Assembly: GCA_946616835.1 (NCBI GenBank)
Contig: CAMOJK010000009.1
Span: 1 to 45,710, forward strand
DNA length: 45,710 bases
Source of the DNA: an uncultured Lachnospiraceae bacterium
GTDB taxonomy: Bacteria; Bacillota; Clostridia; Lachnospirales; Lachnospiraceae
Direction of reading: 5' to 3'
Positions 4,185-23,778 of the stretch are shown here, piece by piece. The notes beneath the pieces are model-generated. The model ran no database searches and was not told the origin of the DNA. It worked only from the letters and a program-made list of their open reading frames with translations. The first letter of the stretch is position 1. The number at the start of each line of letters is the position of its first letter. The translations under genes and the position numbers were made by a program.

Positions 4185-5762
4185 ATGGATATTTCAAAAA
4201 GAAAACTTCCGATAGGGATACAGACATTTGAAAAGATAAGGGAAGAGGGATACATATATGTCGATAAGACAGAATATGTACACCGCCTTGTGCAGAGCGG
4301 CACACAGTATTTCTTAAGCCGCCCCAGACGCTTCGGCAAGAGCTTATTCCTGTCCACCCTGCGAGCATACTTTGAGGGGAAGCGGGAACTCTTTGAGGGA
4401 CTTGAGATAGCGGAGCTTGAAAAGGATGATCCTGATGCATGGCAGGAATATCCGGTTTTTTATATAGACTTTAACAAGAAGAATTTCAAAGCTGACGGTG
4501 CGATAGAGGAAGTGCTGGAGGAGCATCTTAAGGGATGGGAATCGATTTACGGAACCGAATACTCCTCGGAACCGCAGGATGCGAGATTCAGATACCTTTT
4601 GGAGAAAGCAAATAAGATCACCGGCAAAGAGGCTGTCATACTTGTGGATGAATACGATAAGTCTTTGCTGGAGGCCGGTGACAGTGAAAGGATCGAACAT
4701 AATAAAGCTGTATTCAAGGGCTTTTTCAGTACACTGAAAAGCTATGACAGGTATATCAAATTTGTATTTATCACGGGAGTGACCAAGTTCAGCAAGGTGA
4801 GCATATTCAGCGACTTAAACCAGCTGAAAGATATATCTCTTGTCCGGGATTATTCGGGGATATGCGGCATCACCGAAGATGAAATGAAAGATACGTTTAT
4901 GCCGGAAATAGATGCGCTGGCGAGGGAAGACGGAATAAATGCAGATGAATGCATCGGAAAGCTTAGAAAAATGTATGACGGTTATCGCTTCAGCTATAAC
5001 GCTGAGGGAGTATATAATCCGTTCAGCCTGCTGAATGCACTTCAGGACAAAAATTATGGCATGTACTGGTTTTCCACCGGAACGCCCACATTCCTGATAG
5101 AAAAGCTGAAAGAATCATCCTTTGATCCGAAGTGTATTACGGAAGGAGAACTGTATGCTAACGAAAATGTGCTTACGGATTACAGGTATGACAATACCGA
5201 TCCTGTGCCCCTTTTCTATCAGACAGGCTACCTTACGATAAAGGATTATGATAAGAAATACCGCAGCTATCAGTTGGATTATCCTAATGATGAAGTAAGG
5301 TATGGTTTTCTGGAAAGTCTGGCACCGATGTTCCTGCATAATGAAAAAACAGGGAATCCGCTTGATATACGGGCTTTTGGGATAGATATCGAAAAAGGCG
5401 ATACCGACAGCCTGCGCGACCGTTTCACGGCACTTTTTTCAAGACTGCCATACCCTGCCGATGAGAGGATAGTCGAGCAGAATTTCCAGAACGTGATATA
5501 TATTGTATTTATGCTGCTGGGGCAGTTTACCATGACTGAGATACATTCAGCCAAGGGCAGGGCGGATGTCACAGTAGAGACAGATGATTATGTATATATA
5601 TTCGAGTTCAAGAGGGATGGGAGCGCGGATGAAGCCCTTAAGCAGATAGAGGATATGGGCTATGCAAAGCCCTATGCGGCGGATAAACGCACACTCATCA
5701 AAGTAGGGGTAAATTTTGACTCTAAGGAACGGACTATCGACGGATGGGAAGCAGTGATGTGA
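4185..5762 (+). CDS. AAA-ATPase-like / PD-(D/E)XK nuclease protein (DUF1703 type)
   Basis: The start is ATG 4185, which has GGAGGAGAGGGAG directly upstream; the longer frame from 4095 has no ribosome site. The 525-residue protein opens with LPIGIQTFEKIREEGYIYVDKT, typical of the AAA-ATPase-like family. It has a Walker A variant SRPRRFGKSLF near residue 51, Walker B VILVDEYDKS near 152, and a C-terminal nuclease-like domain with VYIFEFKRDGSADEAL near 470 (ExK core of PDDEXK_9). Such genes are abundant, mobile and multi-copy in Lachnospiraceae and Bacteroidetes, with no settled role; defence or mobile-element functions are often suggested. The gene is intact, monocistronic and followed by its own terminator. 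Confidence 0.85.
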   Translation: MDISKRKLPIGIQTFEKIREEGYIYVDKTEYVHRLVQSGTQYFLSRPRRFGKSLFLSTLRAYFEGKRELFEGLEIAELEKDDPDAWQEYPVFYIDFNKKNFKADGAIEEVLEEHLKGWESIYGTEYSSEPQDARFRYLLEKANKITGKEAVILVDEYDKSLLEAGDSERIEHNKAVFKGFFSTLKSYDRYIKFVFITGVTKFSKVSIFSDLNQLKDISLVRDYSGICGITEDEMKDTFMPEIDALAREDGINADECIGKLRKMYDGYRFSYNAEGVYNPFSLLNALQDKNYGMYWFSTGTPTFLIEKLKESSFDPKCITEGELYANENVLTDYRYDNTDPVPLFYQTGYLTIKDYDKKYRSYQLDYPNDEVRYGFLESLAPMFLHNEKTGNPLDIRAFGIDIEKGDTDSLRDRFTALFSRLPYPADERIVEQNFQNVIYIVFMLLGQFTMTEIHSAKGRADVTVETDDYVYIFEFKRDGSADEALKQIEDMGYAKPYAADKRTLIKVGVNFDSKERTIDGWEAVM

Positions 5763-20484: not shown

Positions 20485-21054
20485 ATGGTAATCAATCCTA
20501 TAGTAACTGATGAAAGAGGCCGGAGTAACGACATCTTTTCCAAGAACCTGGAGAACCGTGTGATACACCTGGTGGGAGAGGTGACAGACGAGATGTCTGC
20601 ATCGATAACAGCGCAGCTCCTTCACCTTGCTGCCGTTTCGGATGAGGATATCCAACTCTATATCAATTCCCCGGGAGGATCCGTGTCGGCAGGTCTTGCA
20701 ATTTACGATACCATGCAGTATATCAAGCCTGATGTAGCTACAGTGTGTCTGGGAAGGGCTGCAAGCATGGGGGCAGTCATCCTATCCGGAGGAGCTAAGG
20801 GCAAGCGTGCAATACTGCCCCATGGCGAAGTGATGATACACCAGCCATCCGGCGGCATGGAAGGACAGGCGACTGAGCTTGTCATTGCTGCTGAACATAT
20901 CAAGGACACAAAGCAGATACTTAATGAGATACTTGCAAAGAACTGCGGCAAGGAACTTAAAAAGATTGCCAAAGACACTGACAGAGACCACTGGATGCGT
21001 GCTGATGAGGCGGTGGCCTATGGTGTAGTGGATATGGTGCTTAGCAATAGCTGA
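20485..21054 (+). CDS. clpP: ATP-dependent Clp protease proteolytic subunit (ClpP)
   Basis: The 189-residue protein has the full catalytic triad. Ser94 lies in GRAASMGAVIL, His119 in VMIHQPSGG, and Asp in DTDRDHWM at about residue 168. INSPGGSVSAGLAIYDTM is the substrate-channel strand. It would form a tetradecameric protease chamber with a Clp ATPase. Here it stands alone, with neither clpX nor tig beside it, so it is probably a second ClpP. The N-terminus is a little divergent (MVINPIVTDERGRSND). AGGAGGAATAAAT precedes the ATG. Confidence 0.95.
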   Translation: MVINPIVTDERGRSNDIFSKNLENRVIHLVGEVTDEMSASITAQLLHLAAVSDEDIQLYINSPGGSVSAGLAIYDTMQYIKPDVATVCLGRAASMGAVILSGGAKGKRAILPHGEVMIHQPSGGMEGQATELVIAAEHIKDTKQILNEILAKNCGKELKKIAKDTDRDHWMRADEAVAYGVVDMVLSNS

Positions 21055-21268: not shown

Positions 21269-22381
21269 ATGAAAAAGGCAATAATACATCTTAACTGTCT
21301 CGGCAGGGGCGGTGCTGAAAAAGTAGGCGTTACGCTTGCTGCCGAGATGGTAAAAAAGGGCATCGGTGTCATTATTGCCACCGAGTGGACCGACAAAGTG
21401 GAATATCCTCTTCCCGAGGGCGTGATAAGAGAAAATGTAGGCTTAAGCGATGCTGAGGAGAAGTTATCCAGATTAAAAAAGATCAATCTCCGTAAGGCCA
21501 GGCTTAAGGCACTCATTGAACGTACTTCACCGGATGTGGTATTTGCCCTTGGTGGAAATCTTAATTACAGAGCAGTATCGGCTACCAGGGGGACGGGGGT
21601 GCCTGCTGTAGTATCGGTAAGGAGTGATCCAAATGTCTACTATGCATCACTTTCGCAGAAAATATTAAGCCACAGGTATTATAAGGCTGCCGAGGGAATA
21701 GTGTTTCAGACAGAAGGTGCCAGGGATTTCTTCGGACCTGATATAGCCCGGAAATCAGCCATAATTGTCAATCCTATCGACAAAAAATATATCGGAATGG
21801 CGCCTCCTGCAAAGCGCAGAAAGGTTATTGTCAGCGCATCAAGATTCGTCTATGTGAAAGACCACATGACTATGGTTAAAGCCTTTGAGAAGGCTTTGGA
21901 AAAACATCCGGATGCCATAATGGAACTCTACGGCGGCAAGGGTGCCGATAATGAGATTTTTCAGGTGAAGGAATGGGTGCGCTCACATGGATTGACCGAA
22001 AAAATCTTATTTATGGGCAGCAGTATAGAGTTGGAAAAAAAGCTTCATGATGCGTCAGCCTTTGTGCTTTCCTCGGTATATGAAGGGATGCCGAATGCCC
22101 TGATGGAAGCTATGGCCATGGGACTGCCTTGTATATCTTCCGACTGCCCGCCGGGGGGACCCAGAGCGCTTATAGAGGAGGGCAAAAACGGTCTTCTCTT
22201 TCCTGTGGGGGATGTAGATGCCCTGTCCAAAGCGATGATAAGAATCTTAGACGATCCGGAAGCTTCAAAGGAGATGGGAAAAAGAGCCGCAGAGAAAATG
22301 TCTGCTTACACCGCTGAGAATATAACAGATACATGGCTTGAATATGCCGAGAGTATTATGCGTAAGAACTCAGAATGTTAA
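21269..22381 (+). CDS. Glycosyltransferase family 4
   Basis: This 370-residue GT-B enzyme begins with an acceptor domain carrying LNCLGRGGAEKV, the glycine-rich loop near the N-terminus of GT4 enzymes. It has SASRFVYVKDHMTMVKAF as the linker strand and LSSVYEGMPNALMEAMAMGLP as the EX7E donor site, then SSDCPPGGPRALIEEGKNGLLFPVGD. The PPGGPRALI segment is typical of N-acetylgalactosamine-type (PglJ/H-like) GT4 enzymes, so an amino-sugar donor is possible. It opens the second glycan cluster and probably shares transcription with the following gene across the structured element at 22399-22567. Confidence 0.9.
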   Translation: MKKAIIHLNCLGRGGAEKVGVTLAAEMVKKGIGVIIATEWTDKVEYPLPEGVIRENVGLSDAEEKLSRLKKINLRKARLKALIERTSPDVVFALGGNLNYRAVSATRGTGVPAVVSVRSDPNVYYASLSQKILSHRYYKAAEGIVFQTEGARDFFGPDIARKSAIIVNPIDKKYIGMAPPAKRRKVIVSASRFVYVKDHMTMVKAFEKALEKHPDAIMELYGGKGADNEIFQVKEWVRSHGLTEKILFMGSSIELEKKLHDASAFVLSSVYEGMPNALMEAMAMGLPCISSDCPPGGPRALIEEGKNGLLFPVGDVDALSKAMIRILDDPEASKEMGKRAAEKMSAYTAENITDTWLEYAESIMRKNSEC

Positions 22382-22398
22382 CTTTATCATAGTGCAAG

Positions 22399-22567
22399 TT
22401 CTCCGGCAGGCTTTATGCCTACAGATCGATAGCAAGCGACTGAAGTTTTGCAAGCTCGTCGGCGGTGCGACGCGACCCGGTTTATTAGGAGCCAAAGCAC
22501 CGTCCTAATAGAGCGCAGCAAAACGAAGGTAGCGTAGCGTGATCTGTGGCAAAAGACTGTCGGAGAA
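22399..22567 (+). ncRNA. Multibranched inverted-repeat element or structured RNA
   Basis: The outer arms (22399-22427 with 22541-22567) form about 26 bp, starting TTCTCCG/CGGAGAA and ending ACAGATC/GATCTGT, with one mismatch, one G-U pair and two bulges. Inside, GTTTTGC (22445-22451) pairs with GCAAAAC (22518-22524), GCTC (22454-22457) with GAGC (22511-22514), GTCG/CGAC form a small hairpin (22458-22471), and TATTAGGA/TCCTAATA form a perfect 8-bp hairpin (22483-22490 with 22503-22510). There is no ORF and no T-run after it. It may be a regulatory RNA, an RNA processing site within the operon, or a mobile miniature element with terminal inverted repeats. Confidence 0.65.
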
Positions 22568-22602
22568 TGTAACCAATACAGAATGGGCAACTAACAACTA
22601 AA

Positions 22603-23778
22603 ATGAAAAAAATTCTCATCATTTCAGAAACTGTCCTGTTCCCTATGGACAGGGGAAACAGAAAACGTGTAAAAAATCTGATAGATCTGCTGCGGAGCGA
22701 AGGCTGTACAGTAGACTATCTTTTTATGAATACATATCCTGAGGATGATCCGGAGAAAACCCGTGAATGGATCGGAGAGGAACACTTTTTTACTGTTATG
22801 AACAGAAAGCGTTCTTTTTCCGTATGGTGTAAGCGTAAAGTCCGCAAGGTACTTGAGATACTGCATATACCCTTTGCCTTCAGGTATTTTAGTCTTGACG
22901 AGAGCACAAGCCCTGAACTTGGCAGTGAGCTTGGGAAATTTTTCGAAAGCCACAGTTATGACCAGGCCTGGGTGGTATGCACATACAATACCAGAGCGTT
23001 TCTGTCTGTTCCTAAGGGGACTCTTAAAGTACTGGAGACACAGAATGTCTCTTCCGTAAAAAGACAGGAATATGATGCGGTTAATTATAAGAATTATATA
23101 TTCGCCATGACCGAAGCAACTGAGAAGGCTGCCCTTGAGCGTTCTGATGTGGTGATCGCCATACAGAATGAAGAAGAGGAATTCTTCAGGAATATGCTGG
23201 GCTCAGGCAGTGTGACCAAAGCTGTCACCATAGGCGAGAATATGGAGATAAAGGAACCGCATGTGGCAGATACAAAGAAGGTAGTATTCCTGGGCAGTAC
23301 CTATGTCATCAACAGGGAAGGGGTAATGCACTTTATAGAAGAGATCCTGCCTGAGCTTGAAAAAATCTGCCCTGAGGCAGAGGTGATCTTTGCAGGATCC
23401 ATATGCAAGAGTCTGCCTGACAGTGATGCTTATACAAAGCTTGGCTGGGTGGAGGACCTGGAGGAACTTTACAGGGATGCCAGAGTGATCATAAATCCTG
23501 TAAGACATGGTGCGGGCCTCAACATAAAAATGGTGGAAGCACTGTCTCAGGCAAAGCCTGTAGTTACGCATGTAAAAGGTATGCGCGGACTTTCTTATAA
23601 AAAGCCGGTTGCCGTTATTACTGACGATAATAAGGAATTTGCAGAAGCCATAGCCGAAATCCTGAGGGATGATGCAAAGGCTCTTGAGATGTCACAGACG
23701 GCTGTGGAATTCATGAAGGACTATGAGAATAAGAATCTGCAGGCTGTTAAGGACCTGTTAGCTATCTCCGGCGTATAA
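22603..23778 (+). CDS. Glycosyltransferase family 4
   Basis: This is a 391-residue GT-B enzyme. The N-terminal half begins MKKILIISETVLFPMDRGNR, as in GT4 enzymes that work on surface glycans. ETQNVSSVKRQEYD lies about residue 145. The donor half has KKVVFLGSTYVINREGVMHFIEEILP, LGWVEDLEELYRDARVIINP and RHGAGLNIKMVEALSQAKPVV, giving the GxGxxxK...E pattern of this subgroup. Its last bases overlap the end of the convergent deacetylase-like gene by 17 nt. It is probably co-transcribed with the preceding glycosyltransferase. Donor and acceptor unknown. Confidence 0.88.
   Translation: MKKILIISETVLFPMDRGNRKRVKNLIDLLRSEGCTVDYLFMNTYPEDDPEKTREWIGEEHFFTVMNRKRSFSVWCKRKVRKVLEILHIPFAFRYFSLDESTSPELGSELGKFFESHSYDQAWVVCTYNTRAFLSVPKGTLKVLETQNVSSVKRQEYDAVNYKNYIFAMTEATEKAALERSDVVIAIQNEEEEFFRNMLGSGSVTKAVTIGENMEIKEPHVADTKKVVFLGSTYVINREGVMHFIEEILPELEKICPEAEVIFAGSICKSLPDSDAYTKLGWVEDLEELYRDARVIINPVRHGAGLNIKMVEALSQAKPVVTHVKGMRGLSYKKPVAVITDDNKEFAEAIAEILRDDAKALEMSQTAVEFMKDYENKNLQAVKDLLAISGV

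Follow-up and report, generated by a model that had tools for sequence, protein, structure and literature searches.

The element and its predicted fold

In silico analysis of the window (the whole 45,710-nt stretch of DNA studied here, from an uncultured Lachnospiraceae bacterium whose assembly is a draft of 178 contigs) placed the element in a 221-nt gap between two co-directional glycosyltransferase genes (21269-22381 and 22603-23778). A Clp protease family gene lies upstream of this pair (20485-21054). The outer parts of the element are as follows.

22392..22573, + strand: element with family end motifs, GTGCAAG on the left (22392-22398) and AATGTAAC on the right (22566-22573), the exact end being putative
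22399..22427, + strand: left arm of the outer stem in the minimum-energy fold; the arms differ between copies yet are complementary
22541..22567, + strand: right arm of the outer stem in the minimum-energy fold

Ends of the type GTGYAAGTTCT...AGAACGTAAC were found by inspection to be common to several copies in the genus. RNA folding of 22399-22567 gave -76.9 kcal/mol (z -6.81), with none of 200 shuffled sequences as good, and folding of a wider segment (22380-22590) gave a z of -5.85. The original prediction, made from the letters alone, had described a multibranched structure with a long outer stem enclosing several pairings. The outer stem (22399-22427 with 22541-22567), GTTTTGC/GCAAAAC (22445-22451/22518-22524) and GCTC/GAGC (22454-22457/22511-22514) were all present in the minimum-energy fold, but the window copy folds as a single unbranched rod with internal loops. 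The strings of the two further hairpins proposed, GTCG/CGAC (22458-22461/22468-22471) and TATTAGGA/TCCTAATA (22483-22490/22503-22510), do exist, but their pairing found no support from covariation, as detailed below. The element had also been taken to be non-coding and not a terminator, and both statements held: none of the six ORFs of at least 25 aa overlapping the gap is convincing (the longest, on the minus strand, has 67 aa and a TTG start), and no terminator-like site was detected in 22300-22700. One promoter-like site was reported in the same interval, outside the element and at chance level.

Nor had the element been recognised as a known riboswitch, SRP, RNase P or group II intron, and a search of the window against Rfam gave nothing that reached gathering score. 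When 22300-22700 was searched at E values up to 10, two weak matches far below gathering were returned, DdR16 (E 3.8), which touches the right end on the minus strand, and SpR10 (E 3.2), which falls outside the element. A scan of the window together with 76 loci holding other copies gave gathering-score matches only beside elements and none on an element; below gathering, MIR9471 overlaps the L084 copy (29.5 bits against a threshold of 150, E 0.017) and STnc40 touches the end of L039 (30.5 against a threshold of 45, E 0.21). Among the neighbouring matches were Clostridiales-1 (L032 1146-1312, minus strand, and L088 24-194, plus strand) and TwoAYGGAY (L097 1278-1433, minus strand), separated from the copies by about 70 bases to 1.3 kb and found at 3 of the 76 scanned loci; both fetched copies of genome G234 are among these three loci.

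A dispersed family of copies in Lachnospiraceae

A blastn search for dispersed copies had been proposed, and such copies were found in the window's own genome and in genomes of its genus and family. BLAST with the element gave six matching places in the window's own genome (G000) and, over 35 genomes of the genus, 14 matches in four of them (G000 6, G008 2, G026 3 and G034 3). A covariance model built from nine copies (R1) returned 10 matches over the 35 genus genomes, all in these four, and reached three additional genera in a draw of 397 genomes of the family. A second model (R2) was built from 42 matches, 41 of them distinct (alignment A4), and detected the core in 12 of the 397 family genomes, belonging to 11 of 334 genera, with at least two copies in each; these copy counts are lower bounds, at most nine candidates having been scored per genome under strict filters. 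In genome G430, BLAST located 21 places spanning at least 187 of about 223 positions. A class draw of 391 genomes from 223 genera searched with R2 yielded no genome besides G000, and no element was found in plasmid and phage collections searched by BLAST or in viral contigs searched with exact patterns.

Copies measure about 170-260 bp, four appeared truncated by inspection (L006 and L012-L014), and several sit at the contig ends of draft genomes. They occur in both orientations relative to neighbouring ORFs. The 133 proteins flanking copies matched 175 Pfam families, of which the commonest, ABC_tran, was found in five. Neither a transposase nor an integrase or Y1 partner was present among the 25 commonest Pfam families of the neighbours, and no transposase was among the PHROGs listed for them. 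Orthologous loci are retained in two cases, L002/L008 in G000/G034 and L004/L009 in G000/G026.

Several local arrangements of copies were seen. In L105 (4782-5543, G350:C31), four tandem copies share one orientation at a spacing of 212-222 bases; their contig is short and matches rRNA at either end. Five loci of G199 (L038, L035, L127, L092 and L033) hold divergent inverted pairs of two core subtypes, with a gap between the matched cores of 67 bases in four of the five and of 25 in L033. In L106 (3931-4605, G226:C61), two inverted copies flank a tRNA gene (4279-4351).

The folded core is conserved and covaries

The features of the conserved core in the window copy are as follows.

22423..22533, + strand: conserved core, 135.2 bits with model R1 and 114.2 bits with model R2, the window copy (L001) being among the sequences used to build both models
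22438..22443, + strand: internal-loop strand GACTGA, from alignment rows, facing GAAGG
22525..22529, + strand: internal-loop partner strand GAAGG, from alignment rows
22445..22451, + strand: helix P2, 5' strand GTTTTGC; pairing holds in 95.5% of cells across 88 distinct cores, both-sided changes at 7/7 pairs
22518..22524, + strand: helix P2, 3' strand GCAAAAC; same covariation test
22454..22457, + strand: helix P3, 5' strand GCTC; 97.4% paired, both-sided changes at 4/4 pairs
22511..22514, + strand: helix P3, 3' strand GAGC; same covariation test
22461..22468, + strand: helix P4, 5' strand GGCGGTGC; 89.2% paired, both-sided changes at 10/10 pairs, longer in relatives
22497..22504, + strand: helix P4, 3' strand GCACCGTC; same covariation test
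22472..22493, + strand: apical loop containing GCGACC ... AGGAGCC, which hardly varies within the genus

The apical GCGACC/AGGAGCC motif is present in several other genera but not in all, being absent, for example, from part of G199. By inspection, GACTGA facing GAAGG could possibly form tandem G.A pairs.

Two alignments were used for covariation. Alignment A3 holds nine of the ten intact genus copies (L005 was excluded for an insertion) and was made with MAFFT without reference to structure. On A3 the two inner hairpins originally proposed scored 0.067 against 0.060 for shuffled alignments, with 234 of 500 shuffles as high; one pair of GTCG/CGAC was broken in 3/9 copies and one pair of TATTAGGA/TCCTAATA in 8/9. 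The competing fold (P2, P3 as GCTC/GAGC and P4 as GGCGGTGC/GCACCGTC) had 98.9% of cells paired and both-sided changes at 7 of 30 pairs, and was equalled by none of 500 shuffles on either of these two measures and by 5 of 500 on pair types. Within the genus, P3 also occurs as GTCC/GGAC, GAAC/GTTC, GACC/GGTC and AATC/GATT. Alignment A5 comprises 88 distinct but related cores and is biased towards the model to which it was fitted; here both-sided changes occurred at all 30 pairs, 91.1% of cells were paired against at most 47.6% when slid, and the covariation score was 0.684 against 0.182 for shuffles. The structure-free A3 agrees in direction with the model-fitted A5. The covariation in relatives on which the original prediction was to stand is thus present, for the P2-P4 fold.

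Six genus copies (L002, L004, L005, L007, L008 and L009) carry an additional hairpin between the core and the right arm, which gives a three-way junction there. The orthologues L002 and L008 have cores that are 97% identical, but both arms of this optional hairpin have changed between them (TTCAAACCGC..GCGGTTTGAA against TTCTAACCGAC..GTCGGTTAGAA).

Ends, target-site duplications and insertion sites in relatives

The copies of G430 end in the inverted sequences GTTACAGTTC...GAACTGTAAC. Target-site duplications were sought at 22 G430 loci (L046-L067); one of them lies at a contig end and was passed over, four lacked recognisable ends, and 17 remained. The results showed that the 8 bases outside both ends of these 17 copies agreed at 63% against 24% for mispaired flanks, a value reached in none of 10,000 shuffles; two loci, L054 and L060, were entered with a misplaced right end, which lowers this score. 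In a scan of offsets, the three top scores were 5-base windows inside or adjoining the 8-base stretch. The duplications that the original prediction had asked for are accordingly seen, at about 8 bp, in G430, but not in the window copy, nor was there an excess over mispaired flanks in 58 copies outside G430, those of the window's genus included, whose ends are fuzzy. Two G430 copies, L063 and L067, carry a further short palindrome (around CGTCCAGTGGACGTTCG) as an insertion.

For four G430 sites, the joined flanks were compared with relatives in its genus, and one site proved cleanly uninterrupted: at L048, G840 continues without an insert, in one alignment of 74% identity. In G839 a different hairpin of ~94 bases occupies this exact spot, and G833 has ~195 extra bases there or close by; these other inserts at or near the insertion site are loci L216 and L217, respectively. 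The element is missing at L051 in both G833 and G839, yet roughly 83-94 bases of other additional sequence lie close by, which keeps these sites from being clean. The neighbourhoods of L050 and L062 differ in the relatives of G430, G839 and G833 being longer than G430 by about 1.4-1.5 kb at L062. This extra sequence was considered as a transposon and rejected, for an ORF of 390 aa in it looks like a malic enzyme. A search of G430 for an autonomous partner through solo ends found no good second end nearby, and no inverted pair of transposon size emerged when the matches to an end pattern were inspected by eye.

The window copy in close relatives

One further feature of the window is defined by comparison with the orthologous site of G026.

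22399..22565, + strand: stretch of 167 nt absent from the orthologous G026 site, with AG at both joints

By BLAST, the left flank in G026 is 98% identical to the window and the right flank 96%, and the G026 junction reads GTGCAAG|AATGTAAC where the window has 167 additional bases. Because GTGYAAG and GTAAC are family ends, the G026 site appears to result from a deletion and not to be a virgin site. At the same place, G034 has by inspection arm remnants (AAGTTCT ... GGTCTGCGGTAAAAGCTTATTGGAGAG) and the core is gone. Judging from these sequences, the insertion probably took place before the three lineages separated and was later lost or gutted in both relatives, which implies that the window copy is not indispensable. 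The copy appears to be old and bears no sign of activity.

Cores outlast arms, and arms drift yet keep pairing

Copies were compared pairwise in five groups (45, 36, 28, 28 and 10 pairs), the group of the window's genus spanning four genomes. Mean identity was 0.83-0.93 for cores and 0.65-0.81 for 36-base arm stretches, shuffled sequences giving 0.54 with a 95th percentile of 0.64. In the pairs L003/L009 and L123/L124, the cores were 0.93-0.94 identical, the right arms 0.58 (within chance) and the left arms 0.67-0.69 (just above chance). Segmental duplicates and orthologues among the pairs had arms as similar as their cores. The gap between core and arms was smallest in G199 (0.83 against 0.75-0.76). 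Cores thus outlast arms, and the arms drift yet keep pairing.

In the outer stem of the 17 G430 copies, both-sided changes comprised 29 Watson-Crick changes, one G-U and 11 mismatches, and one-sided changes comprised 41 mismatches and 21 G-U. The arms of 78 copies had 73 G-U against 74 A-C mismatches, and so overall there is no sign of selection on the RNA of one strand. Of the ten groups counted, the window's genus leaned most strongly to G-U (14 against 1 A-C), followed by G105/G418 and G234 (6 against 2 in each); the remaining groups were without such a lean. In the core, the best-paired P2-P4 columns gave 28 G-U against 12 A-C, and these together with the three remaining columns gave 62 against 13, both on the model alignment, which favours G-U; a strand-blind core alignment including loop columns gave 21 G-U against 64 A-C.

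Interpretation

Together, these data make it probable, in our view, that the element belongs to a MITE-like, non-autonomous family of insertion elements of Lachnospiraceae that is moved in trans and has a conserved folded core, the window holding one old copy. By MITE-like we mean its size, inverted ends, duplications and dispersal and the lack of a convincing ORF in the window copy. The copies are short and, judging from the window copy, without coding capacity; they have terminal inverted repeats, a duplication of fixed length (8 bp, in G430) and a dispersed distribution with an insert-free relative (L048 in G840). The original prediction had left standing a novel ncRNA, a processing site and a non-autonomous mobile element bounded by terminal inverted repeats. 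Of these three options the last is the best supported, on account of the dispersal, the inverted ends and duplications of G430, the empty G840 site and the loss of the window copy in relatives. Several results count against this reading: the searches of G430 gave no autonomous partner, duplications were seen in that genome only, just one of its four tested sites is clean in a relative, the G026 joint may stem from a deletion, and in G199 the core-arm gap is small and copies form inverted pairs. The family looks to be uncatalogued and its carriers to be gut and rumen bacteria; in open-licence PMC text, we recognised no paper describing it.

Each copy consists of short ends that vary from genus to genus, a pair of long complementary arms and a core of ~110 bp comprising P2-P4, the internal loops and the apical motif. 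The 8-bp duplications of G430 suggest that, most likely, a DDE-type transposase belonging to another element cuts and joins the ends in trans. Template switching, which is described in PMC8794818 as able to create, restore and keep matched the arms of hairpins, may partly account for the matched arms during replication. Since it can do so, covariation alone is no proof of RNA function. Template switching would also be expected to remove unpaired core residues, and their conservation suggests that something recognises the folded core. The core may be read in folded form by the transposase or a host protein, or it may be functional as RNA.

An unlikely alternative is that the family is a DNA transposon with a conserved functional RNA cargo (a ribozyme or a protein-binding rod), spread through Lachnospiraceae by transposition, in which the arms are free to vary if paired. 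Less likely again would be a multicopy family of genes for a trans-acting structured RNA, with the core as a protein-binding or catalytic RNA transcribed at many sites and dispersal secondary. The covariation speaks for an RNA, as do the conservation of the core fold and many unpaired residues over 11 genera, the retention of internal loops that correction of a palindrome would be expected to erase, and the 14 G-U against 1 A-C in the arms of the window's genus. Against such genes, the window copy has gone or lost its core in two relatives, copies occur in mixed orientation, the arms overall have even G-U and A-C counts, and 22300-22700 gave no terminator and only the chance-level promoter-like site outside the element. 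For the ncRNA option of the original prediction, the covariation asked for is present but does not by itself prove an RNA function.

We rate lower still the possibility that the element is a single-strand DNA hairpin, processed in folded form like attC sites or IS200/IS605, in which structure rather than arm sequence matters. Arms that vary but remain complementary with no overall G-U bias, and conserved unpaired bases within a rod-like hairpin, are what it would predict. IS200/IS605 elements insert without target duplication, and integron or Y1 insertion is not expected to leave the 8-bp target duplications seen in G430, which are the mark of a DDE enzyme. It is very improbable that the element is a local processing or attenuation site acting in cis on the glycosyltransferase pair: its position between the two genes would suit this role, but other copies flank varied genes in either orientation, with the commonest flanking Pfam family in only 5 of 133 proteins, and the two closest relatives, which have the same gene pair, lack the element or lost its core, leaving the processing-site option unsupported. 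A chance hairpin or an assembly artefact can practically be dismissed, draft assembly notwithstanding, given the fold (z -6.8), the presence of homologous cores in 12 of the 397 family genomes and covariation far above shuffles and slides.

If the MITE-like reading is right, the element is unusual in that its middle is deeply conserved and its arms are replaceable, the reverse of the usual recognition of bacterial MITEs by conserved ends around a dispensable middle. This makes it testable whether hairpin shape can serve to recognise a mobile element. It also calls for caution, as strong covariation in palindromic elements need not imply RNA function and such copies could be mistaken for riboswitch or sRNA candidates.

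Comparison with known systems

The attC sites of integrons and the palindromes of IS200/IS605 act in the form of folded hairpins, where pairing and unpaired bases outweigh the sequence of the arms. The HEARO or IscB omega RNA, whose family is in Rfam, is likewise structured and has been multiplied to many copies by a mobile element. HEARO was not reported by Rfam searches of the window copy and other loci, and the present element differs from it in having no ORF attached in the window copy and target-site duplications in G430.

Clostridiales-1 RNA (RF01699), a structured element of Clostridia according to PMC2864571, was considered as a relative and rejected: it was not reported on any element, and its matches were undetected by R2 (at most 4.3 bits inside the L032 match and 6.9 just outside it, and 5.2 at L088). 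The order of its internal loops is similar by eye (UGAG-stem-AAG ... CGNN-stem-CGAA), but its helix layout differs from that of the element.

Prokaryotic MITEs such as Correia, ERIC, RUP and QMITE2 are described in PMC10969869 as short, multi-copy and often intergenic, with inverted ends, direct repeats that fade with age and transcripts that form stable hairpins; QMITE2 has repeats of 7-9 bp, inverted repeats of 23-29 bp and a core of 113-145 bp. The element resembles them in being short and multi-copy with inverted ends. Unlike them, it conserves its core fold and many unpaired residues across 11 genera, whereas its ends differ between genera and its arms drift between copies.
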